Of a DNA stretch of 39,235 nt, positions 1 to 19,198 are shown in pieces (the stretch's first letter is position 1; each line of letters begins with the position of its first letter). The notes under the pieces were generated by a model, which saw nothing but the letters and a program-made list of their open reading frames with translations, was not told the origin of the DNA and did no database searches. The position numbers were made by a program, and so were the translations under genes. The stretch is from a virus, in IMG/VR virus record IMGVR_UViG_3300038701_000590, positions 1 to 39,235 of that record, one strand, 5' to 3'.

Positions 1-206
1 AAGAGCGGACCAGCGCCGCGCAGAGCAAGACTGTTCAGGCGTCCGCTGTGACCGTGGCCTCTGGTGCTGGCGCTGCTGTAAGCGCCGTCTCAGCGCTCGA
101 CAGCACGGCTCAGTATATTGTGCTGGCGTTCGCTGGCGTGATTATCTTGACTGGTATGTTTATCATGCGTGAGCGCCTGAAGGCTTGGGCGGCAGGGCGC
201 AAATGA
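1..206 (+). CDS. Endolysin-like protein, C-terminal end only
   Basis: Only the last 67 codons are inside the window; the frame is open from base 3 and stops at TGA 204-206. The visible part has an Ala/Ser/Val-rich linker followed by a hydrophobic segment of about 18 residues and a basic end (RERLKAWAAGRK). The same design ends the complete M15 endolysin at 37251-37880, and both lie just before an Rz-like gene, so I infer this is the membrane-tail end of a related endolysin. No catalytic residues are in view. The stop overlaps the next start as ATGA. It could also be another membrane-anchored lysis protein. Confidence 0.6.
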   Translation, partial: ERTSAAQSKTVQASAVTVASGAGAAVSAVSALDSTAQYIVLAFAGVIILTGMFIMRERLKAWAAGRK

Positions 207-397
207 TGCTGCGCCTCAAGCTGGCGCTGGCAGCAGCGGGTTCGGTTATCCTCGCCGTGCTGCTGGCCTTCTGGCAGGGCAAGGCAAGGCAGAAGGATGA
301 GGGCTATGCAGAGACCCGCAAGCGCATCGACGAGGCTGATCTTGGCGACGATCCTGATGCCGCTCGTCGCTGGCTGCACGAACGCGGTAAGCGGTGA
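203..397 (+). CDS. Rz-like inner-membrane spanin subunit, left copy
   Basis: This 64-residue protein starts with a hydrophobic helix at about residues 5-22 (LALAAAGSVILAVLLAFW), followed by a short charged periplasmic-type part ending in LHERGKR. The second copy at 38400-38618 shares the TRKRIDE, DLGDDPD and LHERGKR blocks. Its partner, an Rz1-like lipoprotein, is nested out of frame and runs past its end, the classic spanin arrangement. Spanins join inner and outer membranes and disrupt the outer membrane in the last step of lysis. The start at 203 overlaps the upstream stop (ATGA); ATG 206 is also possible. The protein is shorter than Rz of lambda. Confidence 0.65.
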   Translation: MMLRLKLALAAAGSVILAVLLAFWQGKARQKDEGYAETRKRIDEADLGDDPDAARRWLHERGKR

Positions 398-524
398 CGC
401 GATATGCGATGCGACAGCGGCAAGCCGAACGGCACATGCAGCCGCGCTTGCCTCCGATGGCGGTGACAGGTCAGTGATTACAGGCGCGTATCTTATTCGG
501 CAGATCGACGCGGCCTGTCAGTAA
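297..524 (+). CDS. Rz1-like outer-membrane spanin lipoprotein, left copy
   Basis: A 75-residue protein in a different frame, overlapping the Rz-like gene by about 100 bases. It has a lipoprotein signal: basic start, hydrophobic core and lipobox LVAGC with the cysteine at residue 27. After processing, about 49 residues would remain on the outer membrane. AAGG at 286-289 is seven bases before ATG 297, so I prefer this start to ATG 306. The mature part (CTNAVSG, TAASRTAHAAALA, GAYLIRQIDA) is strongly conserved in the right copy at 38521-38748. It is followed directly by terminator 585-620. Confidence 0.65.
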   Translation: MRAMQRPASASTRLILATILMPLVAGCTNAVSGDAICDATAASRTAHAAALASDGGDRSVITGAYLIRQIDAACQ

Positions 525-584
525 TTCCGCCTAAGGCGGTTTCCGTGCCTGCCGGATGCAGGTTATCGTGTACCCCGCGATATG

Positions 585-620
585 CCCCGGCAGCGCCTCA
601 ACTGCCGGGGTTTTTCGTTT
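585..620 (+). terminator. Rho-independent terminator after left lysis genes
   Basis: CCCCGGCAG (585-593) pairs perfectly with CTGCCGGGG (602-610) across an 8-base loop, followed by TTTTTCGTTT. A smaller hairpin, CCTGC/GCAGG, lies just upstream at 548-562. The whole unit resembles those at 2490-2576 and near 39087-39173. Confidence 0.85.
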
Positions 621-641
621 AGGGCATGGAACGCGACCGTC

Positions 642-995
642 CTATTGTTGAATGGCGATCACGTCGCCTTTGAAGCCCATTTCACGCAGTACGGAAATCG
701 GGTCTTTGGCGTCGGCCAGCACGTCTTTCAGGGCCGGGTCGAGAGTGAAGGTTTCGCCGTGTTCGGCAATGAAGGCATCGCGGTGCGCCTCCCATCCGCG
801 ACCATCCACGTCGCGCGGTAATTCTGGATGACACAGGATCAGCGCATCCGCTGCCGGCTTGCCGTAGTGCGCCAGCTCGTGCGTCATGGCGGAACGTCCG
901 ATCATGTGGCTGATCACCTCATAGACGCCGCCGATGTCGCCCATAAGAACGCCAGTGCTGACGCTCAAGACGCCGTGAGTGGGGAATGCTGTCAT
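642..995 (-). CDS. Small phage protein, DUF7736-like
   Basis: A 117-residue leftward protein. The start at 995 is preceded by GAGGACGGACAGC, a good ribosome-binding site; upstream in-frame starts lack one. The N-terminal part (VLSVSTGVLMGDIGGVYEVISHMIGRSAMTHELA, quoted here as separate blocks VLSVSTG, GGVYEVI and MTHEL) recalls the DUF7736 family of small phage proteins from memory; function unknown. The C-terminal half (WEAHRDAFIAEHGETF) resembles an accessory segment found in related phage proteins. It is transcribed away from the resolvase-like gene, and the shared promoter region carries an inverted repeat. The equivalent position in the right-end copy of this locus lacks the gene. Confidence 0.55.
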   Translation of the reverse strand: MTAFPTHGVLSVSTGVLMGDIGGVYEVISHMIGRSAMTHELAHYGKPAADALILCHPELPRDVDGRGWEAHRDAFIAEHGETFTLDPALKDVLADAKDPISVLREMGFKGDVIAIQQ

Positions 996-1021
996 GCTGT
1001 CCGTCCTCGAATTTGTGTTTC

Positions 1022-1063
1022 TGCAAAAACATATAACGTGTTTATCTAAACGGCGCAAGCATA
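1022..1063 (-). promoter_or_regulatory. Leftward promoter with inverted repeat in its spacer
   Basis: On the minus strand TTGCGC and TTATAT are 16 bases apart upstream of the gene that starts at 995. The spacer holds the inverted repeat GTTTA-TC-TAAAC (1040-1051). An operator between -35 and -10 would allow direct repression. A related site, CGTTT-CT-AAACG, lies at 5828-5839; the two share CTAAACGG. Confidence 0.4.
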
Positions 1064-1072
1064 GATCAACAC

Positions 1073-1101
1073 TTGCAATGTTTTTCTGTTCGAAATAGAT
1101 T
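1073..1101 (+). promoter_or_regulatory. Rightward sigma70-type promoter, probably leaderless
   Basis: TTGCAA (1073-1078), a 17-base spacer and TAGATT (1096-1101). The start codon is at 1108, about where transcription should begin, and no AGG-type ribosome-binding site lies before it. This suggests a leaderless mRNA for the resolvase-like gene. Confidence 0.5.
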
Positions 1102-1107
1102 GCGGCT

Positions 1108-1572
1108 ATGAAAATAGCATACCTCTATGACCGCAACATTCAGGACGCAGCCGATTGGGGCTGTGAGAAAGTGTTTGCGGACACACCACAGACGCGGCGC
1201 ATGGAGCGCAACGATCTGATCGAGTTCGCCTTATCGCCCGGTGACACGCTTTGCATTGCCGCACGGTCGGACATTGGCAGGGGGCGCGAGGTGCCGATCC
1301 TGATGGATCGCATCGCCGCTATGGGCGTCTATGTGGACGTGCGTGGCGAACCTGCCAAGCCAAAGGCCAAGGTGGGGCGCAAAGCCAAGTTGACACCTAC
1401 GCCAGAACAAGAGGCGCAGATATGCCGCCTATGGCGTTCTGCTCTGGACCAGTCGCATGTGCTGGAACGTGCCGCGCAGATCGCGGGCGTCGAAGGTGTG
1501 ACGCGCAACCAGATCAACAGGCTGTGCGGGCCGCGACACAAGAAACAGAAGGAGGGCCAGAGCGATGGCTGA
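1108..1572 (+). CDS. Resolvase-like protein without catalytic serine, HTH C-terminus
   Basis: This 154-residue protein has a serine-recombinase-like N-terminal fold signature: MKIAYLY at the start, then GDTLCIAARSDIGRG and IAAMGVYVDV, which match the resolvase pattern in which GD-x-L leads to the DRLGRS region and the late beta strand. The usual YARVS motif is replaced by YLYDRN, so the catalytic serine is missing. A basic linker (KPKAKVGRKAK) leads to a C-terminal helix-turn-helix-like segment (residues about 98-145). I infer a DNA-binding regulator, not an active recombinase. It lacks a ribosome-binding site and probably starts at the 5' end of its mRNA. Overlaps the next gene by 8 bases. 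Confidence 0.55.
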   Translation: MKIAYLYDRNIQDAADWGCEKVFADTPQTRRMERNDLIEFALSPGDTLCIAARSDIGRGREVPILMDRIAAMGVYVDVRGEPAKPKAKVGRKAKLTPTPEQEAQICRLWRSALDQSHVLERAAQIAGVEGVTRNQINRLCGPRHKKQKEGQSDG

Positions 1573-1978
1573 AATGTCGTACCAGAAAGCGGAGCGGAAA
1601 GCCTGTGAGAAAGTGACCGCTGCGTTGACCTTGCCTCTGCCTGAGAGCGAAGAACAGCTTGGCATTGTAGGGGAATTTGACCCGTGGGACTTGTTCCCGT
1701 CACTCTATGGTTCGTACGATGGCGACTTTGACAAGTTGGCAATCGAAGTGCTTGAGGACATCCAGAACGGAACACACAAGCGTCGAGATTTAGCTGCAAG
1801 AATGTTCCGCGAAATGCTTTGCACTGCTGACCTCTGTGACTACGGAACAAGCCCTCGCGGCTGCTTTCCAAACCCTGGCTTCAAGTCGTTGCTGCCTGAA
1901 CTGCTTGAAAAGTGGCGGGCATATTCTTTGATCGCTTGGGGTGAAGACGTAACCGAAAAACCCAAGGAGGGCGAATAA
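1565..1978 (+). CDS. Unknown phage protein, 137 residues
   Basis: A strong site, AAGGAGGGCC, precedes ATG 1565. The protein is acidic and soluble with no signal or membrane segment; blocks include EFDPWDLFPSLYGSYDGDFD and a cysteine pair in LCTADLCDYG. I do not recognise a family. It sits between the resolvase-like protein and a 57-residue protein in a tightly coupled operon and is absent from the right-end version of this junction, so it travels with the insert at 525-2147. Confidence 0.6.
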   Translation: MAEMSYQKAERKACEKVTAALTLPLPESEEQLGIVGEFDPWDLFPSLYGSYDGDFDKLAIEVLEDIQNGTHKRRDLAARMFREMLCTADLCDYGTSPRGCFPNPGFKSLLPELLEKWRAYSLIAWGEDVTEKPKEGE

Positions 1979-2151
1979 TGCCAGAAGTAACGAAACAACC
2001 CGTTTCACTTTGGGATGACAACGAGGGCGAGTTGATTTGCTTTCGAGATGACCACAGCATAGCCGACATTGCGAGATGGGTTATTAGCAACCAAACCGAG
2101 GCCGAGGAATTGCACCGCATTTTGGGCGAGATGCTTGGTGACGGCCAATGA
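1978..2151 (+). CDS. Unknown small protein, 57 residues
   Basis: ATG 1978 overlaps the previous stop (TAATG) and has AAGGAGG seven bases before it, one of the best ribosome-binding sites in the window. The product starts MPEVTKQPVSLWDDNEGEL and ends with an amphipathic helix (IARWVISNQTEAEELHRIL). Its stop overlaps the next start as ATGA. Function unknown; the strong site and double coupling support a real gene. Confidence 0.6.
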   Translation: MPEVTKQPVSLWDDNEGELICFRDDHSIADIARWVISNQTEAEELHRILGEMLGDGQ

Positions 2152-2477
2152 CCCGCCTAGCACTCGCAGCAGCCCTTGCCGCCACAAGCGCACAAGCCGG
2201 GCTAGAGCGGATGAGGCTTCTGCCCGGCGAAGGTCCGTGCTTTGCGATTGTCAGTATTGAGAACCGCATGGGGCGCTACAACGCTGTTGAGACTCTAGAG
2301 ACCGATCATGGCGTCGTGTCTATCCGGTACGAGACCGTGGGCAATCACAACGCCACAGACCACGACCTTGTTGACGTGGTGGACCTACCGCCCGGCGTTG
2401 CAGCCAATCCGATGCACATTGATTTGCCGGATGGCGACACGGGCTATGTATGCCTGATGGAATACCTTGGAAATTGA
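2148..2477 (+). CDS. Secreted conserved protein, 109 residues, left copy
   Basis: A Sec signal peptide (MTRLALAAALAATSAQA, cleavage likely before G18) is followed by a mature domain of about 92 residues with two cysteines (GEGPCF and YVCLMEYL) that could form a disulfide in the periplasm. The copy at 38745-39074 is nearly identical after the signal peptide, while the signal peptides differ freely. In the right copy the gene follows Rz1 directly (ATGA overlap), so I infer a link to lysis or to the host envelope. I do not recognise the family. It ends before terminator 2545-2576. Confidence 0.65.
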   Translation: MTRLALAAALAATSAQAGLERMRLLPGEGPCFAIVSIENRMGRYNAVETLETDHGVVSIRYETVGNHNATDHDLVDVVDLPPGVAANPMHIDLPDGDTGYVCLMEYLGN

Positions 2478-2634
2478 ATTGCGCCAAGTGGCGTGATCCG
2501 TGCCTGCCGGACGCAGGTATCGTTTGTTTACCCCAAGCGATTAACCCCGGCAGCCTGAACTGCCGGGGTTTCTTTTAGAGCGGCTGCGCATTTCTTGCAG
2601 TATTTGCGCCGTTCTCTTTGCGTGGAAGGTGTGC
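2205..2634 (+). repeat. Long direct repeat, left copy (partner 38802-39231)
   Basis: Aligned without gaps at an offset of 36597 bases. I count about 22 mismatches in 430 bases (about 95%), and the last 147 bases, holding the terminator and the end of the zinc-ribbon gene, are identical. Similarity ends abruptly just after 2634/39231. Confidence 0.9.
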
Positions 2635-2774
2635 GGCGGCTTGGTGCATCCGGGGCAAGCATCGTATTCGGCCTTCATGCCGATTGTGCTGTTGGGCGGG
2701 AATGACATTCCGACAAGCAGTTTACGCCTACCCATGCAAATTTCACAGCCGTTACTGCCTATCGCGTCACTCAT
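2541..2774 (-). CDS. Small zinc-ribbon protein
   Basis: A 77-residue protein with two CxxC pairs (CEIC at residues 10-13 and CPGC at about 40-43), as in small zinc ribbons, and a basic tail (RSRSKRNPGSSGCRG). It is the last gene of the leftward early operon. Its C-terminal codons are inside the terminator hairpin. It overlaps the gene before it by 8 bases. The C-terminal 31 residues recur at the right edge of the window (39138-39235). Probably a nucleic-acid- or protein-binding early protein; function unknown. Confidence 0.6.
   Translation of the reverse strand: MSDAIGSNGCEICMGRRKLLVGMSFPPNSTIGMKAEYDACPGCTKPPHTFHAKRTAQILQEMRSRSKRNPGSSGCRG
2545..2576. terminator. Shared terminator between convergent operons
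   Basis: CCCCGGCAG (2545-2553), loop CCTGAA, CTGCCGGGG (2560-2568), then TTTCTTTT for rightward transcripts. The stem also encodes the last residues of the leftward zinc-ribbon gene, so it may slow leftward transcripts too, although the leftward T-run is poor. Confidence 0.85.
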
Positions 2775-2997
2775 CGTCCTGCCCCTTGGGGTGAACCCAA
2801 TCCTCTACGCGTTCCCCCGTATATCGAAAAACGAGCACGCTGTAGCCTTCAGAATAGAACTCTTTGGCACAGCGATAGGCCTCATTCTCATCGTGAAACT
2901 GATGGATTTTAACCTCGAGGATAGGTGCTTCGCCATCCGACGGTAGTCTTTTTCGAGCTTTGACTTGCCACAACTCCTCTGATTTTTTTGAGTGCAT
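2767..2997 (-). CDS. Unknown early protein, 76 residues
   Basis: Starts MHSKKSEELWQ with AAGGAATTAGAAAA upstream as ribosome-binding site. The middle (EVKIHQFHDENEAYRCAKEF) and the end (LVFRYTGERVEDWVH) look like a small alpha/beta domain. No membrane segment. Part of the leftward chain of small genes; I do not recognise a family. Confidence 0.55.
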   Translation of the reverse strand: MHSKKSEELWQVKARKRLPSDGEAPILEVKIHQFHDENEAYRCAKEFYSEGYSVLVFRYTGERVEDWVHPKGQDDE

Positions 2998-3024
2998 TTT
3001 TCTAATTCCTTCTTCCCGGTCCTT

Positions 3025-3180
3025 CTATTTCTTGTCGTAATGTCGGTTGAGAACGTCCGCAATTTCGCGGGCCAAACCGACGATGGAAAATGACCCACCG
3101 ACCACGACCAGAGTTCGGACCTTCTGACCGTCTTCGTGCGTGACGTAAATTTCGTTATCGACTGCGTTGAATGTCGGCAT
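3025..3180 (-). CDS. Unknown small protein, 51 residues
   Basis: Below the usual size cut-off. ATG at 3180 is preceded by AAAGGAC. The product (MPTFNAVDNEIYVTHEDG and on) has a beta-like first half, a VVVGGSFSIVG centre and an amphipathic C-terminal helix (LAREIADVLNRHYDKK). It fills an otherwise empty gap in the leftward operon, 12 bases after the stop of the gene before it, and is followed after 27 bases by the next start. Confidence 0.55.
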   Translation of the reverse strand: MPTFNAVDNEIYVTHEDGQKVRTLVVVGGSFSIVGLAREIADVLNRHYDKK

Positions 3181-3192
3181 GTCCTTTGGTCC

Positions 3193-3324
3193 TTATCGTT
3201 GCTGCGGCAAAGAGCCGTTTGGAAAGCATTTTTTGCAGAGTAAGCCGCGCTCCTGCATCGCGTCCCGAACATCCTGAACCCGAAGCAAGTAACTATCCGG
3301 TAATCCACTGATGCGACACGCCAT
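3193..3324 (-). CDS. Unknown small protein, 43 residues, CxxC
   Basis: I choose ATG 3324 because it overlaps the upstream stop as ATGA and has AAGGAGGGGGAG in front. The product is MACRISGLPDSYLLRVQDV and on, with CKKC near the end, possibly half of a metal site. An in-frame extension to 3381 would overlap the neighbour by 58 bases and has no good site. Confidence 0.5.
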   Translation of the reverse strand: MACRISGLPDSYLLRVQDVRDAMQERGLLCKKCFPNGSLPQQR

Positions 3325-3674
3325 CACTCCCCCTCCTTTGTGGCTTGGTAGGCGGCGAGGGCGGCATCTATATGCCAGCAAAGGGCCATGTCGCGCCTGT
3401 GTTTGTTTTCGTAGGTTGGGTATTTTTCGCGCAAGTCTTCAGGCCAGTCGGCAGCAACATAGCCCGCAAGATCAAGACGCGCTTCTTTTAACAACTCTGC
3501 CAGCGCATCCGCAGCCGCGACACGCTTTCGCAGCGCAAGCACTTCTGCTCGTTCTGTCATGATGATAGAGGCAGCACCTTCGGCTGCCGCCTCTAGGGCT
3601 TCGATGCGGTCAACGGCTTCGTCGCATTCGTCCAAGGCGTTGGCGCGTAGCTGTTTGATCAGATCATCGTTCAT
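3324..3674 (-). CDS. Early protein with DDLIxxLR helix, 116 residues (family member 1)
   Basis: The first 30 residues (MNDDLIKQLRANALDECDEA, then RIEALEA) match the next two upstream paralogues. The central part is an Ala/Glu-rich coiled coil, and the end (HIDAALAAYQATKEGE) is a helix seen in many short phage proteins. The site AAAGGACAAGACG precedes the start. Probably a helical early protein; function unknown. It overlaps the preceding gene by 11 bases. Confidence 0.6.
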   Translation of the reverse strand: MNDDLIKQLRANALDECDEAVDRIEALEAAAEGAASIIMTERAEVLALRKRVAAADALAELLKEARLDLAGYVAADWPEDLREKYPTYENKHRRDMALCWHIDAALAAYQATKEGE

Positions 3675-3900
3675 CGTCTTGTCCTTTCAGTTCTGCGAGA
3701 GTGGTGCGGGCAGCTTCCCGTGCGTCCCAAATCTCTGCCCAAGATGGGTGCGCGTCCGCATAGTCCACCATTTCATCTAGTGCCGTGCCGAGAGCCTCCA
3801 CCGCCTTCGCCAGCTTGGCTTCCAGTTCCTCGATGCGGTGGGCGGCTTCGTCGCATTCGTCCAAAGCGTTGGCGCGTAGGCGTTCGATCAAATCATCCAT
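3664..3900 (-). CDS. Early protein with DDLIxxLR helix, 78 residues (family member 2)
   Basis: MDDLIERLRANALDECDEAA is almost the same as the start of the gene at 3324-3674, in protein and DNA, so one arose by duplication. It then diverges into a coiled coil and a Trp-containing helix (DAHPSWAEIWDAREAART). ATG 3900 overlaps the previous stop as TGATG and is preceded by GGGAGGG; an upstream TTG is less likely. Confidence 0.6.
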   Translation of the reverse strand: MDDLIERLRANALDECDEAAHRIEELEAKLAKAVEALGTALDEMVDYADAHPSWAEIWDAREAARTTLAELKGQDDER

Positions 3901-4031
3901 CACCAAACCCTCCCCGCCACGATCAGCACCGCAACGTAGAGCGATGCAATGCCGACCAGGGCCAGTGCAGAAAACGGGCGCGGATCAACCGTGCGGCCTT
4001 GATTGCGGCGCATTTCGGCTTTCAGTTTCAT
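3900..4031 (-). CDS. Single-span membrane micro-protein, 43 residues
   Basis: Starts at ATG 4031, which overlaps the previous stop as ATGA, and stops at a TGA that overlaps the next ATG. A basic N-terminus (MKLKAEMRRNQGR) leads to one hydrophobic helix at about residues 20-39 (FSALALVGIASLYVAVLIV), with a short GRVW tail. This suggests an inner-membrane protein with the basic end in the cytoplasm. Roles such as exclusion or lysis control are possible but not shown. Confidence 0.55.
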   Translation of the reverse strand: MKLKAEMRRNQGRTVDPRPFSALALVGIASLYVAVLIVAGRVW

Positions 4032-4288
4032 GCTTCCATTCCCCATTTGATCGCCTGCCACACGATTTGATGCGCGCGTTTTTCTGGCGTGTAATCCTCA
4101 TCATCAAGGATATCCGCCAAGTCCGCCATGAGATCGGCAGGCAACGGGCCGTTCAACCAAATGCGCGCAAACTCTTTCAGCTTTTTGTCGCGCTTGTGCG
4201 GGTGCATTTTGACCGTGTTTTGATCGCGCTCTACATCCGGCATGTTGCGCAAATGTCCGGTGACATTCGGGTGTCCGTTCCTGTTCAC
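4028..4288 (-). CDS. Unknown early protein, 86 residues, GTG start
   Basis: The start is GTG 4288, supported by AAAGGAAAC eight bases before it and by overlap with the stop of a tiny upstream frame. The product is rich in His and basic residues at first (KMHPHKRDKKLKEFARIWLNG), then acidic (LADILDDEDYTPEKRAHQIV). Helical, soluble, unrecognised. It overlaps the next gene as ATGA. Confidence 0.55.
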   Translation of the reverse strand: MNRNGHPNVTGHLRNMPDVERDQNTVKMHPHKRDKKLKEFARIWLNGPLPADLMADLADILDDEDYTPEKRAHQIVWQAIKWGMEA

Positions 4289-4359
4289 TTCCGTTTCCTT
4301 TCAACTTGCGCGGCCAATGCGGCTGCTATGATGGCGTGTAGGGTGGCGAGGGCGGTCAC
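4285..4359 (-). CDS. Possible 24-residue hydrophobic peptide
   Basis: GTG 4359 overlaps the previous stop (GTGA), has GGAAGGGAGG just before it, and its stop overlaps the next GTG. The peptide TALATLHAIIAAALAAQVER is hydrophobic with a basic tail. It may be a real membrane peptide or only a coupling leader that carries ribosomes across the gap to 4288. Confidence 0.35.
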   Translation of the reverse strand: MTALATLHAIIAAALAAQVERKRK

Positions 4360-4787
4360 GGCCTCCCTTCCTCTCGATAGAAACGGGGGGCTGGCTTAAC
4401 GTCTGCGATGGCGTCCTCGACAAGCGCCTTCTCTGCCCTTGCAGCCATTCTTCTAACTGTTGCATTTGGCGACACGCCGGGGGCTTCGATTATTTCCGCC
4501 AGCGCCCGCCAGAGATTGTTGTGCGCCTCCATCACCTTATCCGCCGCAGCTACGCGCGTCTCTAAAACTTCGATGCGGTCGGCGGCTTCGTCAGCCATGC
4601 GGTACAGCGCACCAACTCGGAGCGTTATGTTTTTTGCGCGGCGTAGGCGGTCAACAAGATCATCCATCGTCTTTCTCCTAGCTATCGCCGCCAGCACTTC
4701 CAGCGCCAGCGGCTTGATTGTCAGTCTGCGACAGACCCTGAGCGGACAGTCGCGGCCTTGGTTGCAGTCGTGGGTGCAGCACTTCAC
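4356..4787 (-). CDS. Cys-rich segment fused to a DDLVxxLR helix protein (family member 3), internal start
   Basis: From GTG 4787 (GTGA overlap with the previous stop) the frame encodes a Cys-rich N-terminus (KCCTHDCNQGRDCPLRVC) like short free-standing phage proteins. It then runs into MDDLVDRLRRAKN, the shared start of the helix family. The internal ATG 4667 has AGGAGAAAGACG in front, a much stronger site than the GTG, so two products are likely: 143 and 103 residues. The C-terminal part is coiled coil plus a helix (EIIEAPGVSPNATVRRMAAR). Function unknown. Confidence 0.5.
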   Translation of the reverse strand: MKCCTHDCNQGRDCPLRVCRRLTIKPLALEVLAAIARRKTMDDLVDRLRRAKNITLRVGALYRMADEAADRIEVLETRVAAADKVMEAHNNLWRALAEIIEAPGVSPNATVRRMAARAEKALVEDAIADVKPAPRFYREEGRP

Positions 4788-4981
4788 CACGGACGCGCCT
4801 TCGGTCGCGGCGATGCGCTCAACAGCGATGAGCGTTCACACATCACCGCCACGTCGTCGTAGGATGCATCGAGGACGGCCTGCATGGGCTGTAGGGCTGC
4901 GCTGCACTCAGCTTCGCTGGGAAACAGAACGCGGCTTTCCACGTCGCCATATAAAGCGATCAATACGGTCCAGAGTTTCAT
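4784..4981 (-). CDS. Unknown small protein, 65 residues
   Basis: ATG 4981 overlaps the previous stop as ATGA. The N-terminus MKLWTVLIALYG is hydrophobic and could be a weak signal or a buried strand. The rest (FPSEAECSAALQPMQAV, VMCERS) resembles small phage proteins in which a Ser/Glu/Cys helix follows a hydrophobic start, sometimes secreted. Two cysteines could pair outside the cytoplasm. Not recognised. Confidence 0.5.
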   Translation of the reverse strand: MKLWTVLIALYGDVESRVLFPSEAECSAALQPMQAVLDASYDDVAVMCERSSLLSASPRPKARPW

Positions 4982-5214
4982 CTCGACATCCCCCCGGCAT
5001 CGCGCAATGCGCTCTCTTTATACTGGCACCAATCCGGCGTCTCGTTTGTGTCGCTTGGCAGCTTGCGCGACTTGCTGTCATCCGTCCCATTCCAGAGACA
5101 TGCGCCGCCGATGTAGCCGCGACAGCAATATCCACCGCTCAGACACTTGGCGATCAGCTTGCCGGGTTCGTCTTTGCGTTCAATGATTACGGGTCCGAAT
5201 GTGTATTGGGTCAT
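4978..5214 (-). CDS. Unknown Cys-containing early protein, 78 residues
   Basis: Begins MTQYTFGPVIIERKDEPG. The centre is cysteine-rich (KCLSGGYCCRGYIGGACLW), with one more Cys in DWCQYKESALRD, possibly a metal or disulfide knot. The start at 5214 overlaps the previous stop by ATGA and the stop overlaps the next ATG. Unknown function. Confidence 0.55.
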   Translation of the reverse strand: MTQYTFGPVIIERKDEPGKLIAKCLSGGYCCRGYIGGACLWNGTDDSKSRKLPSDTNETPDWCQYKESALRDAGGMSR

Positions 5215-5426
5215 AGTCCTGCGTTCCTTTCCATCATTGCATGTGCTTTGTCATCCTCGGCCATCTCTTGCATGGCAGCAGCTTCTTCGTCATTCGCGCG
5301 GGCGCAGCTATCGCAAGCCCATTTGTTTCGCTCGTATTCGGTGAGATCGTCTTCCTCAAAATCGCATTCGCAATAATCGCAGCGGAACGTCTCGACAAAG
5401 GCGGGGGGATAGAGCCAGGACGCCAT
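5211..5426 (-). CDS. Small zinc-finger-like protein, 71 residues
   Basis: I use ATG 5426, which overlaps the previous stop as TGATG; the longer frame to 5486 would bury the upstream membrane micro-protein. CDYCECDFEEDD and CDSC give two CxxC pairs about 24 residues apart, typical of a zinc ribbon, then an acidic helical tail (EEAAAMQEMAEDDKAHAMME). Probably an early nucleic-acid- or host-protein-binding factor. Confidence 0.55.
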   Translation of the reverse strand: MASWLYPPAFVETFRCDYCECDFEEDDLTEYERNKWACDSCARANDEEAAAMQEMAEDDKAHAMMERNAGL

Positions 5427-5524
5427 CACATCCACCCCGCGCCATAGGCCACGAACATCAGAACAAACGGCAGCGCAAAGACGCACGCCGCACCGATCAA
5501 GTCAGCTAGAAATTCGCGGATCAT
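5426..5524 (-). CDS. Membrane micro-protein, 32 residues
   Basis: Starts at ATG 5524 (ATGA overlap) and stops at a TGA sharing its A with the next ATG. The sequence MIREFLADLIGAACVFALPF and on is one hydrophobic helix over about residues 8-28 with a very short tail (GAGWM). Its position in an unbroken chain of coupled genes supports translation; too short for most gene callers. Function unknown. Confidence 0.55.
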   Translation of the reverse strand: MIREFLADLIGAACVFALPFVLMFVAYGAGWM

Positions 5525-5727
5525 GCTGTCCACCCCGCCTGCTTAACCGCGCCCTCAGCAATCTTGCGATTGCGCATCTCTTCGCGCGTCATGCCATGAT
5601 CGATGATGTGGTCAACCTCTGCGGCCATCTCGCGCAGTGCAGTGACGGGCTGGCCTTCGCGGTTGCCGGATCGTATCGCGTCGTAAATCGCGCGGTTGAG
5701 CGCCTGCATGTTCTTTGCGTGTGTCAT
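5521..5727 (-). CDS. First gene of leftward early operon, 68 residues
   Basis: ATG 5727 has AGGAGAAACGACAC before it, and this site fixes the start; the frame stays open upstream to 5820 but without a site. MTHAKNMQALNRAIYDAIRS and later DHIIDHGMTREEMRNRKIAEGAV look helical. I do not recognise a family. It follows a 115-base untranslated region with a strong hairpin and opens the run of small genes down to 2541. Confidence 0.6.
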   Translation of the reverse strand: MTHAKNMQALNRAIYDAIRSGNREGQPVTALREMAAEVDHIIDHGMTREEMRNRKIAEGAVKQAGWTA

Positions 5728-5842
5728 GTGTCGTTTCTCCTGTGTGAAGCGGGGGCCGTAACCCCCGCGTTGCTGCCATTGAGACAACATTACGCAATCC
5801 CCACCCCAGTGTAAATACAAATCGACACGTTTCTAAACGGTT
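5728..5842 (-). promoter_or_regulatory. Control region before the early small-gene operon
   Basis: Non-coding gap between the helicase stop and the first small gene. It holds the inverted repeat CGTTT-CT-AAACG at 5828-5839 (like 1040-1051) and a strong hairpin GCGGGGG/CCCCCGC at about 5749-5768 just before the ribosome-binding site. I could not define convincing -35 and -10 boxes here. The hairpin may be an attenuator or an mRNA-processing site. Confidence 0.4.
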
Positions 5843-7177
5843 TTATGGTTTGAGCGCGTCTAGCAGGCTTTTTTGCGAGGCGTCTTTGTCGCGCAGAACA
5901 GTCATCACGCGCTGGTCAATCGTACCATCAGCGACGATGTGGACGATCCTGACGGGCCGATCTTGACCTTGACGATGTAGGCGTGCGTTAAATTGCTGAT
6001 ACAACTCAAGTGACCAATTCAATCCAAACCAAACGCACAACGCGCCGCCTTTTTGGAGGTTCAAACCATGACCCGCACTGGCTGGGTGGGCTAGCAACAT
6101 TTTGATCTCACCACGGTTCCAAGCGTCAATCGTGTCTTGCGACTTGTCCAAAACCCGCGCGTCTGGAAACCGCGTCAACAAACGCTCCAGATCGCTTTTA
6201 TAGTTGTATGCGACAAGCATTGTTTCTGACGGGTTATCGTCAACGATCTCAGCAAGCGCGTCCAGCTTTGCGACGTGCGTTTCCGTCCAGTTTTTGTGCG
6301 CGTCCGTATAGATTGCACCATTGGCATATTGCATCAACTTGTTTGCCAGAACCGCAGCTGTTGACGCCTCAACCTCTTTGCCGTCGTCCAACTCAGCCAA
6401 CATCGTGCGCTCGAAGTCTTTGTAGCCAGGTTCCGCTTTGCCAAGCGAAACGGTTTCAACCAAATCAATTCGCGCTGGCATGTCCAAGTAGTCTTCTGCG
6501 CTCATGTGAATAACCTTGTCTGACACAAGCCGATGAATTTTGTCATCTGATCCGGCGCGCAATTCAAACTTACGCCCAAAATAGTCAGCTTCAAAAAACC
6601 GATGCTTGTATCCGGTCAAGGTGCGTCCAAGCCTTTCGCCGTAGTCGATCAGATACATCTGTGACCATAGATCAAGCAAGCCGTTCGGGCTGGGCGTCCC
6701 AGTCAGAAGCACAATGCTTTCAATGCTTGGCAGCATCTTGCGCAATGCCTTGAACCGTTTGCTGGAAGCGTTCTTGAATGAACTGCTTTCATCAACCACC
6801 ACCACATCAAACGGCCATTTTGACCCGTAATTCTGCACCAACCAAGGCACGTTTTCACGGTTGATAACGTACACATCAGCATCGACACTGAGAGCCGATC
6901 TGCGGACCTTCTCTGCACCAGTGCAGACCGACACCCGCAAATGATTGAGATGCACCCACAGCCGCGTCTCCTGCGCCCACACGCTGTTTGCAACGCGCAA
7001 AGGGGCAATGACCAAGACCTTGTTGGCGGTAAAACCGTCAAGCATGTCGCTGATTGCGGTAAGCGTGGACACGCTCTTTCCTAGACCCATCTCCAACGCC
7101 AACATGCAACGCTGCTCGCTCAGTATAAAATCAACAGCCTTGCGCTGATACGCGTGAAGATTATGGCGTGAAAGCAC
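5843..7177 (-). CDS. SNF2-type DNA helicase/ATPase
   Basis: A 444-residue superfamily 2 motor. Motif I is MGLGKS (residues 30-35), motif II VVDES (127-131), motif III LTGTPSPN (158-165); motifs V and VI are SAGHGLNLQ and QFNARLHRQGQ near the C-terminus. The compact length without extra domains is usual for phage members found beside VRR-NUC and polymerase genes. GTG 7177 is the start, set by GGAGGACGCCC just before it; it overlaps the nuclease gene by 17 bases. Probable role: DNA remodelling or branch processing in phage replication, in the cytoplasm. Confidence 0.88.
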   Translation of the reverse strand: MLSRHNLHAYQRKAVDFILSEQRCMLALEMGLGKSVSTLTAISDMLDGFTANKVLVIAPLRVANSVWAQETRLWVHLNHLRVSVCTGAEKVRRSALSVDADVYVINRENVPWLVQNYGSKWPFDVVVVDESSSFKNASSKRFKALRKMLPSIESIVLLTGTPSPNGLLDLWSQMYLIDYGERLGRTLTGYKHRFFEADYFGRKFELRAGSDDKIHRLVSDKVIHMSAEDYLDMPARIDLVETVSLGKAEPGYKDFERTMLAELDDGKEVEASTAAVLANKLMQYANGAIYTDAHKNWTETHVAKLDALAEIVDDNPSETMLVAYNYKSDLERLLTRFPDARVLDKSQDTIDAWNRGEIKMLLAHPASAGHGLNLQKGGALCVWFGLNWSLELYQQFNARLHRQGQDRPVRIVHIVADGTIDQRVMTVLRDKDASQKSLLDALKP

Positions 7178-7430
7178 GGGCGTCCTCCATGCTGTCGATC
7201 ACGCGCACATCGCAACCCAGCGCCCTGCGGCGCTCATGGTCGCGGTGCTGTAATTCCGTCGGCTTTTTGCCGGGGGCTTTCACCTCAACAAAGATGATCC
7301 GACCACCGGGCAGTGTGACAATGCGATCAGGCACAGATCGCTTTGTTGGGGACGTAAACTTTTCGCACGTCCCGCCCAACACCTTGACGCGCTGCACCAG
7401 CGCCCGTTCAACATCTCGCTCAAGCATCAT
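7161..7430 (-). CDS. VRR-NUC endonuclease
   Basis: An 89-residue stand-alone VRR-NUC nuclease of the PD-(D/E)xK fold. SVPDRIVTLPGGRIIFVEVK holds the core: the PD aspartate, then the E-V-K pair, followed by the basic helix (ELQHRDHERRRALG) and DVRVIDS strand. Phage VRR-NUC proteins cut branched DNA such as Holliday junctions. It lies between the polymerase (11-base overlap) and the helicase, consistent with joint replication and recombination. Confidence 0.9.
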   Translation of the reverse strand: MMLERDVERALVQRVKVLGGTCEKFTSPTKRSVPDRIVTLPGGRIIFVEVKAPGKKPTELQHRDHERRRALGCDVRVIDSMEDARAFTP

Positions 7431-9204
7431 TCACTCCTAATTGCTTGAACACCATTTTCGCCATCCCGACATATCGCTCAAAATCAACGTCGTCTGGAAA
7501 CACGCCTGGCAGATCGAGGCACGGCATCGCACCATCGCTCTGCGGAACCTTGTTGCTGTTCTTGGCGTAGTTGATTGTTTCGTCAGGGCTGACGGATGTG
7601 CTGTAATAAAACCGAACAGCCTTACCGAGTGACTGGTCGCGCCATGTCGCTCCACCAGTGACCTTGCGCAGCATGATTAGCTTTCGCATGTCCTGACATG
7701 AGCGGATCACGTCTTTGTAATTACCCGACCCAGACAGGTGTGCCGCTACTGCATCCGACACAATTTCAAACTGAGGGTTTTTCATCAGCCCGGCTTGTGC
7801 GAATGCGCCTTTGCGCTTGGCGGTTCCGTCAGGCTTAACGGCAATATAATTATTTACGTCTCGATTGTGCAAAGACAGATAATCGCTGCGCTCCAACTCG
7901 TAAGACGTGTCCAACTCCCAATCAAACATCACCTGCGCCAAGTCAGGCTCAAGGCGCTTGTGCGCAAAGACCACGATCCCGTCGGTATTGGCGCTGACAA
8001 CCTTTGCCCCAACACCCTCAACACGTTCGATCAACATCAACAGCGCAAGCTGACCAGTTATCGTTGTCTGGATCAGTAGGTTTGGGGCATACAGCGTTGA
8101 ATACTTGCTGCCCAACTTTCCAAACGACCCATTGACGACAATCTTGAGAGTGCTTGCGGTCACTGTATCGCCAGCGCGCTTGGCCTTGATGCGTCGATCA
8201 ACAATCGACTGATATACGCGCGTAAAGTTGTCGCCCATGCTGTCTGGCGCAATGTCTTGTTGTAGAATGATCGAAGGGTAATAGGACGCAACGTCAAAGT
8301 CGGCCAGCATGTGATCCGATCCAGCGTAAACGCTCTGTCCCTTTTCGCATGAGTGTAGACCGCCAACACCCATTTGATATTCACCATCGCCGATCTTGAT
8401 CTTGGTATCTTTGAGCCAATCAGGCATTTTGATTGACCCGTTGCCGCTTATCTCAAACCGATGCGCGATCAGGCGTGCCAGCACATCGCGCAGCGTCGGG
8501 CCGTTGAATGTGATGATCTTCGGATCAAGATACCGGAATGTCTCATCTTCGCTGATCTTCGGCACGCGCAACGTCTTGCCGCTTACATCCTCAACCTCGG
8601 ACTTCAACACAGCCTCGGCGATCTGCGCATCTGACTTTGACCGCAGATCGACACTATATTCCCGGCTCATGTCAACGCGCAGCGCCACTTGCTTTTCTAC
8701 CGTTTGATACAGCGCATCAGTTACGCGCAGATCATTCACGCAATACTTCTTCAACACTTCTCGCTGATCCGGCGCAATGCTTGCATTTGGTTCTATGGGC
8801 AAGTCTTGCAGCTTCGGGTATCCGAGCCTGCCAGCATATACTTTGAGGCTGGCCTGACCTGGCACAACGTCGAAGATGTCAATGTGGTCCCACTTCTGCG
8901 GAATTTCGATGCCGTGTTCTTTGCAGACGCGCCAGCTTGGAAGGTTGCTTTTGATGATCGCATCACTGATGCGCTTCAACTCTCCACAGTTGCGGTTTTC
9001 CAGCGCACCCGCAATCATCGGCAGGTCGTAGCTGTTCCCATTAAAGCTGATCGTCGTGTGGCTGCGCATCAGATTCGACACCTTAGAAACATCAAGTTTC
9101 TTGTCGGTGTGCATTTCAAAAGACGCAACTTTTCCGCTTCCACGGTCCAAAAAACAAATCAAGAAATAGTCACGGTAACATTCAACGTCGAGTATTAATG
9201 CCAT
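7420..9204 (-). CDS. Compact family-B-like DNA polymerase with 3'-5' exonuclease
   Basis: 594 residues. The exonuclease motifs are intact: DVE (6-8), FNGNSYD (54-60) and YCVND (154-158). Polymerase motif A is DVASYYPS (304-311), motif B KIVVNGSFG (354-362) and motif C SANTDGIVV with NTDG at 406-409. Family-B enzymes usually have DTDS there, so the first aspartate is Asn. The TPR insertions of protein-primed enzymes are not obvious. GGAGG lies nine bases before the ATG. It is the replicative enzyme of the leftward operon. Confidence 0.85.
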   Translation of the reverse strand: MALILDVECYRDYFLICFLDRGSGKVASFEMHTDKKLDVSKVSNLMRSHTTISFNGNSYDLPMIAGALENRNCGELKRISDAIIKSNLPSWRVCKEHGIEIPQKWDHIDIFDVVPGQASLKVYAGRLGYPKLQDLPIEPNASIAPDQREVLKKYCVNDLRVTDALYQTVEKQVALRVDMSREYSVDLRSKSDAQIAEAVLKSEVEDVSGKTLRVPKISEDETFRYLDPKIITFNGPTLRDVLARLIAHRFEISGNGSIKMPDWLKDTKIKIGDGEYQMGVGGLHSCEKGQSVYAGSDHMLADFDVASYYPSIILQQDIAPDSMGDNFTRVYQSIVDRRIKAKRAGDTVTASTLKIVVNGSFGKLGSKYSTLYAPNLLIQTTITGQLALLMLIERVEGVGAKVVSANTDGIVVFAHKRLEPDLAQVMFDWELDTSYELERSDYLSLHNRDVNNYIAVKPDGTAKRKGAFAQAGLMKNPQFEIVSDAVAAHLSGSGNYKDVIRSCQDMRKLIMLRKVTGGATWRDQSLGKAVRFYYSTSVSPDETINYAKNSNKVPQSDGAMPCLDLPGVFPDDVDFERYVGMAKMVFKQLGVNDA

Positions 9205-9265
9205 GAGGGGTGGCCTCCATGTCTGGCGATGTGGTGAGGGGCGACCGAAGCCGCCCCGCTAGGTC

Positions 9266-9793
9266 TTACATGAAGTCGTCCATCTCGGCGTCGTCAAATA
9301 CGTCAAAATCATCTGCGCTGGCGCTGACACCATCGGCAAACGGCTCGCCGTCCTTAAAGAATTGTACACCGAGCAGGTTGGCGTTGATGCGCTTCCCATA
9401 CTGGTTGTCTTGCGCCCACAACTCAATCACCGCGTTGACGTAGCAACCCGCATAAATGCGGTTATCGTCTTCGGTCAGCGGTGAGCGGTCACGGTCCAAC
9501 ACCATCGGGCGTTTGCCGTTGGACGCCTTGATTGACATATGACCGGCGTAACCAGCGTAGTCGATGTCGTCGCCGTCCTTCAGGCAAATCTTGTCAGCCT
9601 TTAGCTTTGCGCCTTTCAGCCGATCAGCGATCAAACCTTCAATCGCCTTTTCAATTTCGGCGATCTTGTCTGCCTGCGTATCTTTGTCAATCAGGAACGT
9701 GCCTTCAAACTTTGTTTCTTCGCCAGAAAACGTGGCTTTGCGGAACAAAGACGGAAACGAGAGGCGCACGTTGTTCAATTTGATCTTCGACAT
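9266..9793 (-). CDS. DUF2815-type ssDNA-binding-like protein
   Basis: 175 residues from MSKIKLNNVRLSFPSLF, start fixed by AAAGGAAAAG; upstream codons in this frame lack a site. The N-terminal signature and the NAVIELWAQDNQYGKRINANL block match DUF2815, whose members occur next to phage polymerase and DUF2800 genes. The acidic C-terminus (DDFDVFDDAEMDDFM) looks like the tail by which single-strand-binding proteins recruit partners. I infer the phage SSB. A 61-base gap with a small GGGGCG/CGCCCC hairpin separates it from the polymerase gene. Confidence 0.82.
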   Translation of the reverse strand: MSKIKLNNVRLSFPSLFRKATFSGEETKFEGTFLIDKDTQADKIAEIEKAIEGLIADRLKGAKLKADKICLKDGDDIDYAGYAGHMSIKASNGKRPMVLDRDRSPLTEDDNRIYAGCYVNAVIELWAQDNQYGKRINANLLGVQFFKDGEPFADGVSASADDFDVFDDAEMDDFM

Positions 9794-9858
9794 TTTACTT
9801 TTCCTTTCAGGGTTTTTGCGCTGCGTTTTGCAGCGTTCTTGCACAATACATTTCGATT

Positions 9859-11028
9859 TTAACCAGTGCAATCACTAAAATCGTTTTCTGATACACCCAA
9901 CGCTGGGCGCGGATCAGATGACTTTGCCAATGTTGGTGCGCCGCTTGGCTTCACAATCAAGTCGGCAACATCTGATGCGCGTTTCTTGCCCAACGCCTTT
10001 TCAGCTTGTGCAGGGCTGATGATCTTGCGCGGCGCAAAGGCATTGTCGTCAAGCATATCAACCAGTCTCGCTTCTGCATTGCGCTCATCTGACCAGCGGC
10101 GATTGCTTCGCCCCTCAACCAGCTTGTACCCATCAAAGCTGCCACCATCGGTAAGACGATCTTTGACAAGGGTTTCAATAGCCGACAACCAGCTTTCGAT
10201 CAGAGGCTTTGCGTCAAGGGCTGTCCGCATCTGCGCATCAGTAAGCGTGTTGGCCTTGGGCATGTTGTCTAGGTCATCAAATTCAGACAAGATCACCGCT
10301 TCAGTCATGTCGCGTAGGGCTTGGCATGATGCCTTGGCACGGCAGAACCGACATTGCTTTTCGCCGGGTACGCGCGGTGCATCATCTTCGGCTGTTTCTT
10401 CGGCGCGTTGCTTTGCCCATTCAGCCCACCGCAACAGGGCGTCAATGCTGATTTCCCATTCGCTGATGTGGTCAAGGCGCGGTTGCACAATGCTGATGCG
10501 GGCAGTGTGTATGTCACCGATCCAACTGTTCTCAGCGTATGCGCCCAGCGCGTAAAGCATCCCCTGCGGGTTTTCTTCGGCATCTACGCGCACACCCATG
10601 CCGTACTTAAGGTCGCAGACGTGGATCACACCATCCTTGATAATGACCGCATCAGCAGTGCCGAAACCACCCTCAACCCAATCGGCGTAACTGACGCGCT
10701 GTTCAATCTCGAACAAATCAGCACCTTTGGCGGCTTGATTGACGTAATCAACGTACACGCGCACAAAGTCAGCCATTTCGGTGTTTTCATAAAGGTCAAG
10801 CCATTCGTGGGATTTGATGTGCGCGTAGCGATCAAAGTCGTCGCCATCAACATGCTCCGGTGGAAGGTGTGCCATGCGCAAAGCCATTTCGGCCAACTCA
10901 TGCGCCTCAGTACCTTCGGCTGCGAACGGGCTTGTTGTGTTGGGAATGTCGCGTTCAGCTTCAACGCTGCCGGGACATACAAGCCAGCGGTGCGCGTTGG
11001 ACGCGCCAAGCGTCGCGTGCGCAGTCAT
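9859..11028 (-). CDS. DUF2800 Cas4/RecB-like nuclease
   Basis: 389 residues. The PD-(D/E)xK core is visible as GTADAVIIKDGVIHVCDLKYG (about residues 122-142; here D125, D139 and K141), followed by QGMLYALGAY, the QxxxY motif. A cysteine at residue 18 and the cluster CRFCRAKASC near 222-231 would hold an Fe-S cluster as in Cas4/AddB-like nucleases. Found with DUF2815 and polymerase in many phages; likely end resection or recombination. The start overlaps the previous stop as ATGA. Confidence 0.85.
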   Translation of the reverse strand: MTAHATLGASNAHRWLVCPGSVEAERDIPNTTSPFAAEGTEAHELAEMALRMAHLPPEHVDGDDFDRYAHIKSHEWLDLYENTEMADFVRVYVDYVNQAAKGADLFEIEQRVSYADWVEGGFGTADAVIIKDGVIHVCDLKYGMGVRVDAEENPQGMLYALGAYAENSWIGDIHTARISIVQPRLDHISEWEISIDALLRWAEWAKQRAEETAEDDAPRVPGEKQCRFCRAKASCQALRDMTEAVILSEFDDLDNMPKANTLTDAQMRTALDAKPLIESWLSAIETLVKDRLTDGGSFDGYKLVEGRSNRRWSDERNAEARLVDMLDDNAFAPRKIISPAQAEKALGKKRASDVADLIVKPSGAPTLAKSSDPRPALGVSENDFSDCTG

Positions 11029-11348
11029 TGATCTGCACCCAGCGATGTGACCCAGCCGTAAAACGCAACTGCGTTGCCCGCATCGAGGTCTTGGATTTTC
11101 GTCACGCCAAACCCAGCCAGCTTGTCTCGGATCGCGTCTTTATGACCAGATCGCGCAGCCTTGAGCGTGGCGTCTTTAAGGTCTTGGGCGTTTGGGGTTT
11201 TTTGTGTCAGTGTTTGATCGCCTGGCTTCGGTGTCGGTGTCAGCGTTGACGCATCGTCGTTTGACGTCGGCGTGTTTGACTGGGCTTCAATCACCGCCGT
11301 CAGCTTTTCAACGGCATCTGTTAGGGCTGCGATTTTCTGTTCAAGCAT
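11025..11348 (-). CDS. Unknown replication-operon protein, 107 residues
   Basis: First gene of the leftward replication operon. Residues 1-22 form a coiled coil (KIAALTDAVEKLTAVIEAQ), then a Thr/Pro-rich linker, then a small helical domain (KDAIRDKLAGFGVTKIQDL and VAFYGWVTSLG). This C-terminal domain type is common in short phage proteins next to recombination genes. Possible multimeric partner of the DUF2800 nuclease or SSB. GAGGAAACC precedes the start. Confidence 0.6.
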   Translation of the reverse strand: MLEQKIAALTDAVEKLTAVIEAQSNTPTSNDDASTLTPTPKPGDQTLTQKTPNAQDLKDATLKAARSGHKDAIRDKLAGFGVTKIQDLDAGNAVAFYGWVTSLGADQ

Positions 11349-11423
11349 TTTAGGTTTCCTCTTGTTGCGATAACCGGTTTATTACTATACGTTACGCGAC
11401 AATGCAACACGAAAGGAAACGAA
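11349..11423. promoter_or_regulatory. Divergent promoter/operator between replication operons
   Basis: Minus strand: TTGCAT, 17 bases, TAATAA. Plus strand: TTGTTG, 17 bases, CTATAC. The two promoters overlap. An imperfect inverted repeat, GTTGCGATAAC (11364-11374) and GTTACGCGAC (11391-11400), flanks the centre, and AACCGGTT (11372-11379) is a perfect palindrome inside it. The HTH protein encoded just to the right is the obvious candidate to bind here. Confidence 0.5.
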
Positions 11424-11597
11424 ATGCTGCGATCCAGTGAACTGGCCGAACACCTCGGCCTGACCAAGAACAAAATCATCCAGCTTGCCAACAACGGTGA
11501 AATCCCCGCGATCAGGCTTCCAAGCGGGCATTATCGCTTTGACGCAGACGCAGTGGTTGAGGCGTTGCGCACAGGTGGCAGCAAGAATGATGATTAA
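11424..11597 (+). CDS. Excisionase/MerR-like helix-turn-helix protein, 57 residues
   Basis: MLRSSELAEHLGLTKNKIIQ, then NNGEIPAIRLPSGHYRF: the winged helix-turn-helix pattern of HTH_17/excisionase proteins, where the helix pair is followed by a beta wing with GHYRF. ATG 11424 has AAAGGAAACG before it. It starts 27 bases from the right arm of the inverted repeat in its own promoter, so autoregulation of the two divergent operons is likely. With no integrase in view, a role as a true excisionase is unlikely. Confidence 0.75.
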   Translation: MLRSSELAEHLGLTKNKIIQLANNGEIPAIRLPSGHYRFDADAVVEALRTGGSKNDD

Positions 11598-14049: not shown

Positions 14050-14289
14050 GGCCCCGAAAACCCCAAACAGGCCCCGAAACAGGCCCCGAAGTTGATTGTT
14101 TCGGGGCCTGATTTTTTCTTTTGTTTTCTTATGTTTATAGCTCTAGGCCCCGAAAGCCTCGAAAAAAGTAAGTAGTAGTATAAAAGTAATTTAATTTTAA
14201 AATTTGTGTTTTCACACAGTGTAAAATTTAAAGTTAATATTAGAACTGCGCTGACCGGGGATTTTCGGGGCTTTCGGGGCTTCGGGGCC
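14050..14289. other. Candidate replication origin: repeat arrays flanking A+T-rich core
   Basis: GGCCCCGAA(A) occurs at 14050, 14070, 14082 and 14146 on the plus strand, and inverted as TTTCGGGGC(C) at 14099, 14262, 14272 and 14281. Between the arms, 14161-14247 has about 18% G+C by hand count, far below the rest of the window. It includes GTGT-TTTC-ACAC and runs of A/T. Iterons beside an unwinding element next to a PrimPol-helicase gene fit an origin. Two more copies lie in the end of the helicase gene (13912 with one change, 13931). Part of the array doubles as a terminator. Confidence 0.6.
14082..14121 (+). terminator. Terminator after the primase-helicase gene
   Basis: GGCCCCGAA (14082-14090) pairs with TTCGGGGCC (14100-14108) across nine bases, then TGATTTTTTCTTTT. 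A strong rho-independent terminator built from two oppositely oriented copies of the repeat. 14290-14476 beyond the array holds no convincing gene, only the leader of the next operon. Confidence 0.75.
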
Positions 14290-14476
14290 TGCTGGTCGCT
14301 TTTCGCATGTTTTTATGGTCGCACAAAAATCTTGGAAGGTGACACTCAGTTTTTGGTTGTCAAAACTCAAATGTTGCGTATCGTACGCCTGCGCGACCTA
14401 GCCCCGATCAGGCGAACATCGGACCTCCCACCGACTGGTCGTGCATCACACTTTGGGAAAGCGAAAGGGAAACGCT

Positions 14477-14743
14477 ATGACAAACAAACGAACTCAAATT
14501 CTCGAAGACGCGTCACGCCTTATCAGCGGCGACAGAGAAGCGGCGTATGGGCCACCTGCCGAAAACTTTGAACGCGTTGCCGCCGGGTGGCGGGTCATCC
14601 TTGGCGCAGACGTAACGCCGTCTCAGGTCGCCTTGTGCCTCGCATGGCTAAAGACGGCGCGCTTGGTCAACACGCCGACCCACGAGGACAGCTTTGTTGA
14701 TATGGCTGGCTATGCGGCCTTAGCTGGCGAATTGGCGGAGTAA
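14477..14743 (+). CDS. DUF6378-like phage protein, 88 residues
   Basis: The start is set by AAAGGGAAACGCT before ATG 14477. ILEDASRLISGDREAAYGPP, ENFERVAAGW, ALCLAWLKTARLVNTPTHEDS and FVDMAGYAALAGELA match the DUF6378 pattern found in many phages (GDR-YG-P at the start and a D-DS-VD-AGYAA end). Members resemble MazG-like all-alpha nucleotide hydrolases in pattern, but the function is not established. First gene after the candidate origin; the next gene starts 5 bases after its stop. Confidence 0.72.
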   Translation: MTNKRTQILEDASRLISGDREAAYGPPAENFERVAAGWRVILGADVTPSQVALCLAWLKTARLVNTPTHEDSFVDMAGYAALAGELAE

Positions 14744-14748
14744 CGCAC

Positions 14749-15345
14749 ATGCTTATATCCCAAACACGCACCCCCGTGCCACCCGCGCAACCCGCCAAGC
14801 GCCGACCGATGACCGAGGACGAACTGATCGCCGCCATGAAGGAGGACGCTAAGGAAATCGCCAAGCGACACCACCGCGAACGACCACCATCCCAACAAGC
14901 GCGAGGGCCAATAGCAGAGCACAAGATTTACGACTTCATCGCACAGAACCCAAATTGCAGCGTGCTTGACATCGCGGCACACTTCGACAGGCAGTCCAAA
15001 TCTATATCCAGTCTGCTGTCGCGCATGGAGGGCCGCAATGCGATCAAGGCAACGATGGGCAAAAACCCAGCAACAGGCCGACCAATTCGCTTGTTTAAGA
15101 TCGTGCCGGAAAAGAAGATCGACAGACAGCGCGTGTCGCAAACCAAAGCAGTCTTTGATTACATCAAAGCAAATCCTGGTTGCAGCAAGGCCGAAATGGC
15201 CGCAGGGTTAAATCTGAGCACCAAACAGATCGAAGGCGCGCTGACCAACATGGGACGTTACAAAGACCGCTTTCCGATCCGGCGCGAGTACGAAAACGGC
15301 AAGCGGTCGGCGGTGCGTGTCTGGGCAACGGAGGCCGTGCAATGA
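14749..15345 (+). CDS. Tandem winged-helix DNA-binding protein, 198 residues
   Basis: Two similar winged-helix units: residues about 60-108 (IYDFIAQNPNCSVLDIAAHF, then SLLSRMEGRNAI) and about 135-190 (VFDYIKANPGCSKAEMAAGL, then GALTNMGRYKD). Both contain the NPxCS turn before the recognition helix. The N-terminus is a proline-rich, charged extension. GGAGTAACGCAC precedes the start. Probably a sequence-specific DNA-binding protein, for example a late-gene regulator. Stop overlaps the next start as ATGA. Confidence 0.65.
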   Translation: MLISQTRTPVPPAQPAKRRPMTEDELIAAMKEDAKEIAKRHHRERPPSQQARGPIAEHKIYDFIAQNPNCSVLDIAAHFDRQSKSISSLLSRMEGRNAIKATMGKNPATGRPIRLFKIVPEKKIDRQRVSQTKAVFDYIKANPGCSKAEMAAGLNLSTKQIEGALTNMGRYKDRFPIRREYENGKRSAVRVWATEAVQ

Positions 15346-19169: not shown

Positions 19170-19198
19170 TCGGGCAAATTATCTTGCGAGGCGAACCC

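Follow-up and report, generated by a model that had tools for sequence, protein, structure and literature searches.

Gene content of the contig

The window analysed here, 39,235 bases long, is the entire IMG/VR record, a single whole contig that is classed as linear. Its body is one P22-like phage. A leftward unit of early genes encodes a helicase, a polymerase, an ssDNA-binding protein and an exonuclease; rightward genes follow in the order primase, methyltransferase, terminase, portal, scaffold, coat, head-closure, ejection and tail, and downstream of the tail genes, in the same direction, lie an M15 endolysin, basic proteins, Rz/Rz1 and a secreted protein. The gene order is that of P22-type phages (portal phrog_156, major head protein phrog_283 and Hc3 phrog_578 in PHROG, with a scaffold present), and over the whole contig the virion genes are single-copy, with one set of terminase, portal, coat, tail and head closure genes. 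Neither a tyrosine integrase (PF00589) nor a serine resolvase (PF00239) was matched by Pfam anywhere in the contig, and no host genes were recognised in it; an integrase accompanied by attachment or host sequence, which would mark a prophage, was not found.

Some smaller features of the body were also recorded. An Rfam match to the int-alpA RNA (14391-14458, 37.4 bits against a cut-off of 35.8) lies between the primase and a MarR-like gene, in a contig with no recognisable integrase. A stretch among the leftward early genes is repeated at 3589-3673 and 3818-3902 (82% over 85 bp), with a third copy of 36 bp at 4557-4592, which suggests a small family of duplicated early proteins. A second peptidase-like gene, distinct from the lysis endolysin, sits amid the head and tail genes (27992-28627) and may be virion-associated.

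Rz, its embedded Rz1 lipoprotein gene and the secreted protein gene are present at both ends of the contig, and the left end also repeats an endolysin tail and the beginning of the convergent early unit (Table 1). The junction marks where the late (lysis) transcription unit ends, facing the leftward early unit. The two versions differ by a cassette. At the left, Rz1 is followed by a first copy of an RNA/terminator element (T1), a leftward gene and a rightward operon ending in the secreted protein gene and a second copy of the element (T2); at the right, the secreted protein gene comes straight after Rz1. The left insert comes with a copy of the element, which gives the left version two copies against one in the right. 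A preliminary description of this DNA had counted four genes inserted between Rz1 and the secreted protein gene, and we find there one leftward and three rightward ORFs. The secreted protein has 109 residues at the left and 109 to 112 at the right, depending on the start. Searches with this protein and with two of the left cargo genes returned one relative each. By eye, the product of 1108-1572 slightly resembles the N-terminal domain of a serine recombinase without the catalytic serine; with no Pfam resolvase match, we rejected a resolvase reading.

Three basic proteins had been proposed between the right endolysin and Rz. The first (37880-38041) and the third (ending at 38396) have homologues in contig L030, whereas the 20-residue one (38038-38100) is only an ORF. 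The reading frame that opens the window matches the end of an M15 endolysin in L052 (tblastn, 65% over residues 1-65), with matches of 45-49% also in L068, L070, L071 and L076. This C-terminal membrane segment is joined to differing catalytic domains, M15-type in L052 and, by eye, CHAP-like in L068 and VanY-like in L076, which suggests domain swapping.

Table 1. Features of the two versions of the lysis/early junction and of the putative circle
Feature	Position	Strand	Evidence
C-terminal membrane segment of left-version endolysin, cut by contig end	3..206	+	tblastn
Left Rz spanin	203..397	+	PHROG 1026 Rz-like spanin, E 1.3e-5; start codon at 203
Left Rz1, embedded lipoprotein gene	297..524	+	84% DNA identity to right copy; lipobox LVAGC
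T1, first RNA/terminator element copy, left version only	516..618	+	covariance model 99 bits; core 543-562
Leftward cargo gene, DUF7736	642..1058	-	Pfam PF24875, E 1.2e-16
First rightward cargo gene	1108..1572	+	homologues in L006, L010/L011, L068; tblastn 45% and 35%
Rightward cargo gene	1565..1978	+	ORF; no Pfam or PHROG match
Rightward cargo gene, overlaps start of secreted-protein gene	1978..2151	+	ORF
Left secreted-protein gene	2148..2477	+	right copy matches at 95% (DNA) from 2205; L004 at 81% (protein)
T2, second RNA/terminator element copy	2470..2576	+	covariance model 96.5 bits
147 bp exactly repeated at 39085-39231; probable join between two strain alleles	2488..2634	.	overlap comparison
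Zinc-ribbon-like last gene of leftward early unit	2541..2774	-	ORF with CxxC pairs; no Pfam match
Putative full circle, one P22-like phage genome, 36,597 bp	2635..39231	.	single terminase, portal, coat and head closure genes; overlap geometry
Right-version M15 endolysin	37251..37880	+	Pfam PF08291, E 8.7e-28
Small basic ORFs, endolysin-Rz interval	37880..38396	+	homologues 81% and 67%, same order, in L030
Right Rz (38400-38618) and embedded Rz1 (ATG 38521, end 38748)	38400..38748	+	
Right secreted-protein gene, immediately after Rz1	38736..39074	+	DNA match to left copy
Right RNA/terminator element copy	39067..39173	+	covariance model 96.6 bits
Four bases CCTT past the shared stretch, unmatched at left (GGCG there)	39232..39235	.	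overlap comparison

Comparison of the two ends

A BLASTN comparison of the window with itself aligns 2205-2634 with 38802-39231 at 95.36% identity (681 bits, far beyond chance) and, in the same order, 299-513 with 38520-38734 at 83.7%, the latter pair covering Rz1; no further match of comparable size links the ends. These pairs bear out the earlier claim that the same lysis/early junction stands at both ends in two diverged versions. The first pair had been described as matching at about 95% without gaps, and this is essentially right: it holds a single offset of 36,597, BLAST placing two compensating one-base gaps. The second pair has a different offset because the left copy is about 1.6 kb longer between Rz1 and the secreted protein gene. 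Identity decays leftwards, from the last 147 bp, which are exact, through the secreted protein gene (about 93%) to Rz1 (84%), and the signal-peptide region and the endolysin are diverged between the versions.

Simple exact terminal redundancy was rejected, since the first bases of the contig recur nowhere and the exact repeat is internal on the left. The same exclusion made beforehand stands for the left start; it fails for the right end, whose 147 bp (followed by the four stray bases) recur exactly, 2,487 bp inside the left end. Because the right end overlaps the contig there, the overall shape is that of a circle with a 2.5-kb branch leading into it; the circle, at 36,597 bp, agrees with the previous estimate of 36.6-38.2 kb. 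Bases 39232-39235 differ from 2635-2638 and literal closure is not seen, which counts against the circle. A scan of IMG/VR with the shared stretch found no contig extending past 39235.

Related contigs

Scans with the endolysin, the terminase and the terminator core led to many IMG/VR loci, and whole contigs were compared for 18 of them. In each of the seven contigs of the terminase set that reach 34 kb (G001-G007, 34.5-42.7 kb), the two ends repeat 123-141 bp exactly, most often 126, 127 or 141, so that the sequence closes into a circle; circle sizes range from 34.3 to 42.6 kb. From the endolysin set, G019 and G021 close likewise. Word sizes in metaSPAdes and MEGAHIT usually go up to 127 and 141. 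The window's overlap of 147 bp is not itself a standard k value and is no shorter than an assembler word. Three of the closed relatives also end in non-matching bases (nine in G004, three in G007 and seven in G021), so the four stray bases of the window are not unusual. The closed contigs are opened at differing map positions, in the scaffold, portal, tail or other regions, a pattern compatible with headful packaging of permuted, terminally redundant DNA that may simply reflect the assembler's choice. Another circular relative, MW202867 (34.5 kb), has one lysis module adjoining convergent early genes. Among 76 sequences, some of them overlapping records, the window is the only one with two Rz/Rz1 pairs; 50 others hold Rz and/or Rz1, each as a single copy.

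Both types of junction occur alone elsewhere. L004 has the right type, with the end of Rz1, the secreted protein, the terminator element and early genes, and L030 has it up to Rz1: there, the right-type endolysin, basic proteins, Rz and Rz1 come after the window's late genes (one at 95%), which links this type to the tail genes. L068 shows the left type within one junction, from the endolysin tail, Rz, Rz1, T1 and leftward cargo through a homologue of 1108-1572 and other rightward cargo to T2 and the early genes; it also links the left type to middle genes like those of the window (marR-like, 92%). In L015, L070 and L071, the terminator element and the early genes follow Rz1 without any cargo; in L012 a single other small gene precedes the element, and L010 is a further single-junction example. 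The several layouts of these single junctions show that the lysis/early junction is a variable site, of which the window shows two states.

A structured RNA element at the junction

Both versions of the junction end in a copy of an element of about 105 nt that closes rightward units and consists of a variable hairpin, the invariant core CCGTGCCTGCCGGAYGCAGG, a hairpin with a C-rich loop and a terminator. The window contains three occurrences of the core, against 0.01 expected when up to three mismatches are allowed. It was also found in 14 IMG/VR stretches, and the element in some 13 related phage contigs, in both cases nearly always at the lysis/early junction. Core matches in two bacterial genomes (L078 and L079) were rejected as chance, as they lie within coding sequence and the rest of the element is absent; L072, which matches the core and hardly the rest, was omitted.

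Run over 642 kb, a covariance model built from 15 copies recovers those already known, with no other convincing hit. RNAalifold detected little covariation on a MAFFT alignment because the two variable stems were misaligned, and a direct stem search was used instead. The stretches before and after the core form stems far better than shuffles do, with z of about 11 and 13, values that overstate independence since the copies are related. Differing sequences build the hairpin before the core (GCGCC/GGCGT, CTCAC/GTGAG, CCGCC/GGCGG) as well as the one after it (TACAGTG/CACTGTA, TATCGCT/AGCGATA), the latter mostly round a C-rich loop; this second stem is absent in two copies, T1 of L068 and the element of L004. 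The L004 element resembles T2 of the window upstream of the core and T1 of L068 downstream of it, a mosaic that would fit an exchange at the core and is only suggestive.

No Rfam family was matched at its gathering score by the terminator element. Anti-hemB (RF02837) aligns along its whole model, mostly via the terminator stem, and far under the gathering score (23.8-30.9 bits against 49.5), so it was rejected as an identification. It is possible, though not probable, that the element is a structured RNA of phages, about 105 nt long and so far undescribed (covarying hairpin, invariant CCGUGCCUGCCGGAYGCAGG core, covarying C-rich-loop hairpin, terminator), whose core also serves as homology for the exchange of lysis/early cargo cassettes between strains.

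Origin of the doubled junction

How did a single contig come to hold two versions of the junction? Nothing else is doubled: the contig covers one full gene set, and its ends overlap in map position. Very probably, it represents the genome of one P22-like phage, whose map (2635-39231) is circular and about 36.6 kb long; the sample would have contained at least two strains that differ at the lysis/early junction, and the assembler would have joined their alleles. The right end would be the junction of one strain, attached to the late genes, and the left 2,487 bp the junction of another, linked to the early region via the common 147-bp stretch. The assembler would have started in one allele and finished in the other, leaving the circle unclosed; two strains with the 147 bp and the early region in common and different sequences upstream would yield such a circle with a branch. 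We infer that these strains were present together in the sample, and place the join, also by inference, inside the 147 bp. A circularly permuted genome assembled through two strain variants was among the options of the preliminary description, and it is well supported by the seven closing relatives, by the presence of each junction type alone elsewhere and by the fact that no relative has two lysis modules. Doubled ends of this kind are an ordinary effect of assembling mixed phage populations.

Alternatively, one genome of more than 39.2 kb might truly hold two diverged lysis/early junctions in tandem, with a missing stretch past 39235 that runs into the left endolysin. It is true that one contig carries both versions, that the sequence at 2635 does not follow the right end, and that the circles of relatives, which reach 42.6 kb, leave room for such a genome. 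We nevertheless consider it unlikely, as none of the 75 other sequences, closed circles included, has two copies of Rz or Rz1, and the two-terminator layout that makes up a single junction in L068 is already complete in the left version. Moreover, a right end that stops four bases past an exact interior match is what an assembly join should produce, and would otherwise be a coincidence.

The same early account had also offered a tandem of two related phages, or one phage next to a remnant. On this reading, which extends to tandem prophages, the left 2.6 kb would be the end of a neighbour's genome. The left end is indeed that of a related phage's lysis module, as a neighbour's right end would be, but this option found no support: there is one set of terminase, portal, coat and tail genes, and no integrase, resolvase or host gene was recognised in the contig. 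The left module passes directly into the early genes of this phage, not into an attachment site, and the neighbour would have to share the exact map point of the contig end. We consider this arrangement very unlikely. It is likewise very unlikely that the versions are alternative states of one population, in which the repeated terminator elements recombine and a single lineage flips between cargo and no cargo. T1 and T2 do bracket most of the left cargo, junctions with and without cargo are found across relatives, and the mosaic element of L004 is in keeping with such events; yet T1 and T2 are only about 76% identical. With the flanking Rz1 genes 16% different and the endolysins wholly different, the two versions are diverged alleles, not two states that one lineage adopts.

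Comparison with known systems

Within-population variation and shared regions cause breaks and mixed paths in phage contigs (COBRA, PMC10914622; Phables, PMC10563150). As in those cases, the assembly of a phage with a circular map stops where variants have a stretch in common, and the overlap is part of the contig; unlike them, the window has at one end some 2.5 kb that belong to the alternative allele. The overlap is thereby internal, and tests for end repeats class the record as linear. Linear status in a record can thus conceal a full phage genome with a strain-variant tail, which such tests miss and whose lysis module appears doubled. The window also offers a clear pair of alleles at the variable lysis/early junction, and the conserved RNA element found there may merit its own study.

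The closest annotated phage, MW202867 (Caudoviricetes sp.), shares the order of terminase, portal, scaffold, coat and head-closure genes (terminase 74%, portal 70% and coat 70% identical) and has one lysis module facing leftward early genes. It differs in its early region, its endolysin type and its junction cargo, and the basic protein gene lies elsewhere in its genome. The extra genes of the left allele, which sit with their own terminator between conserved genes, resemble moron-type cargo of phages. In contrast to such cargo, they are arranged as two diverging units, with a copy of the same element at the close of every rightward unit.
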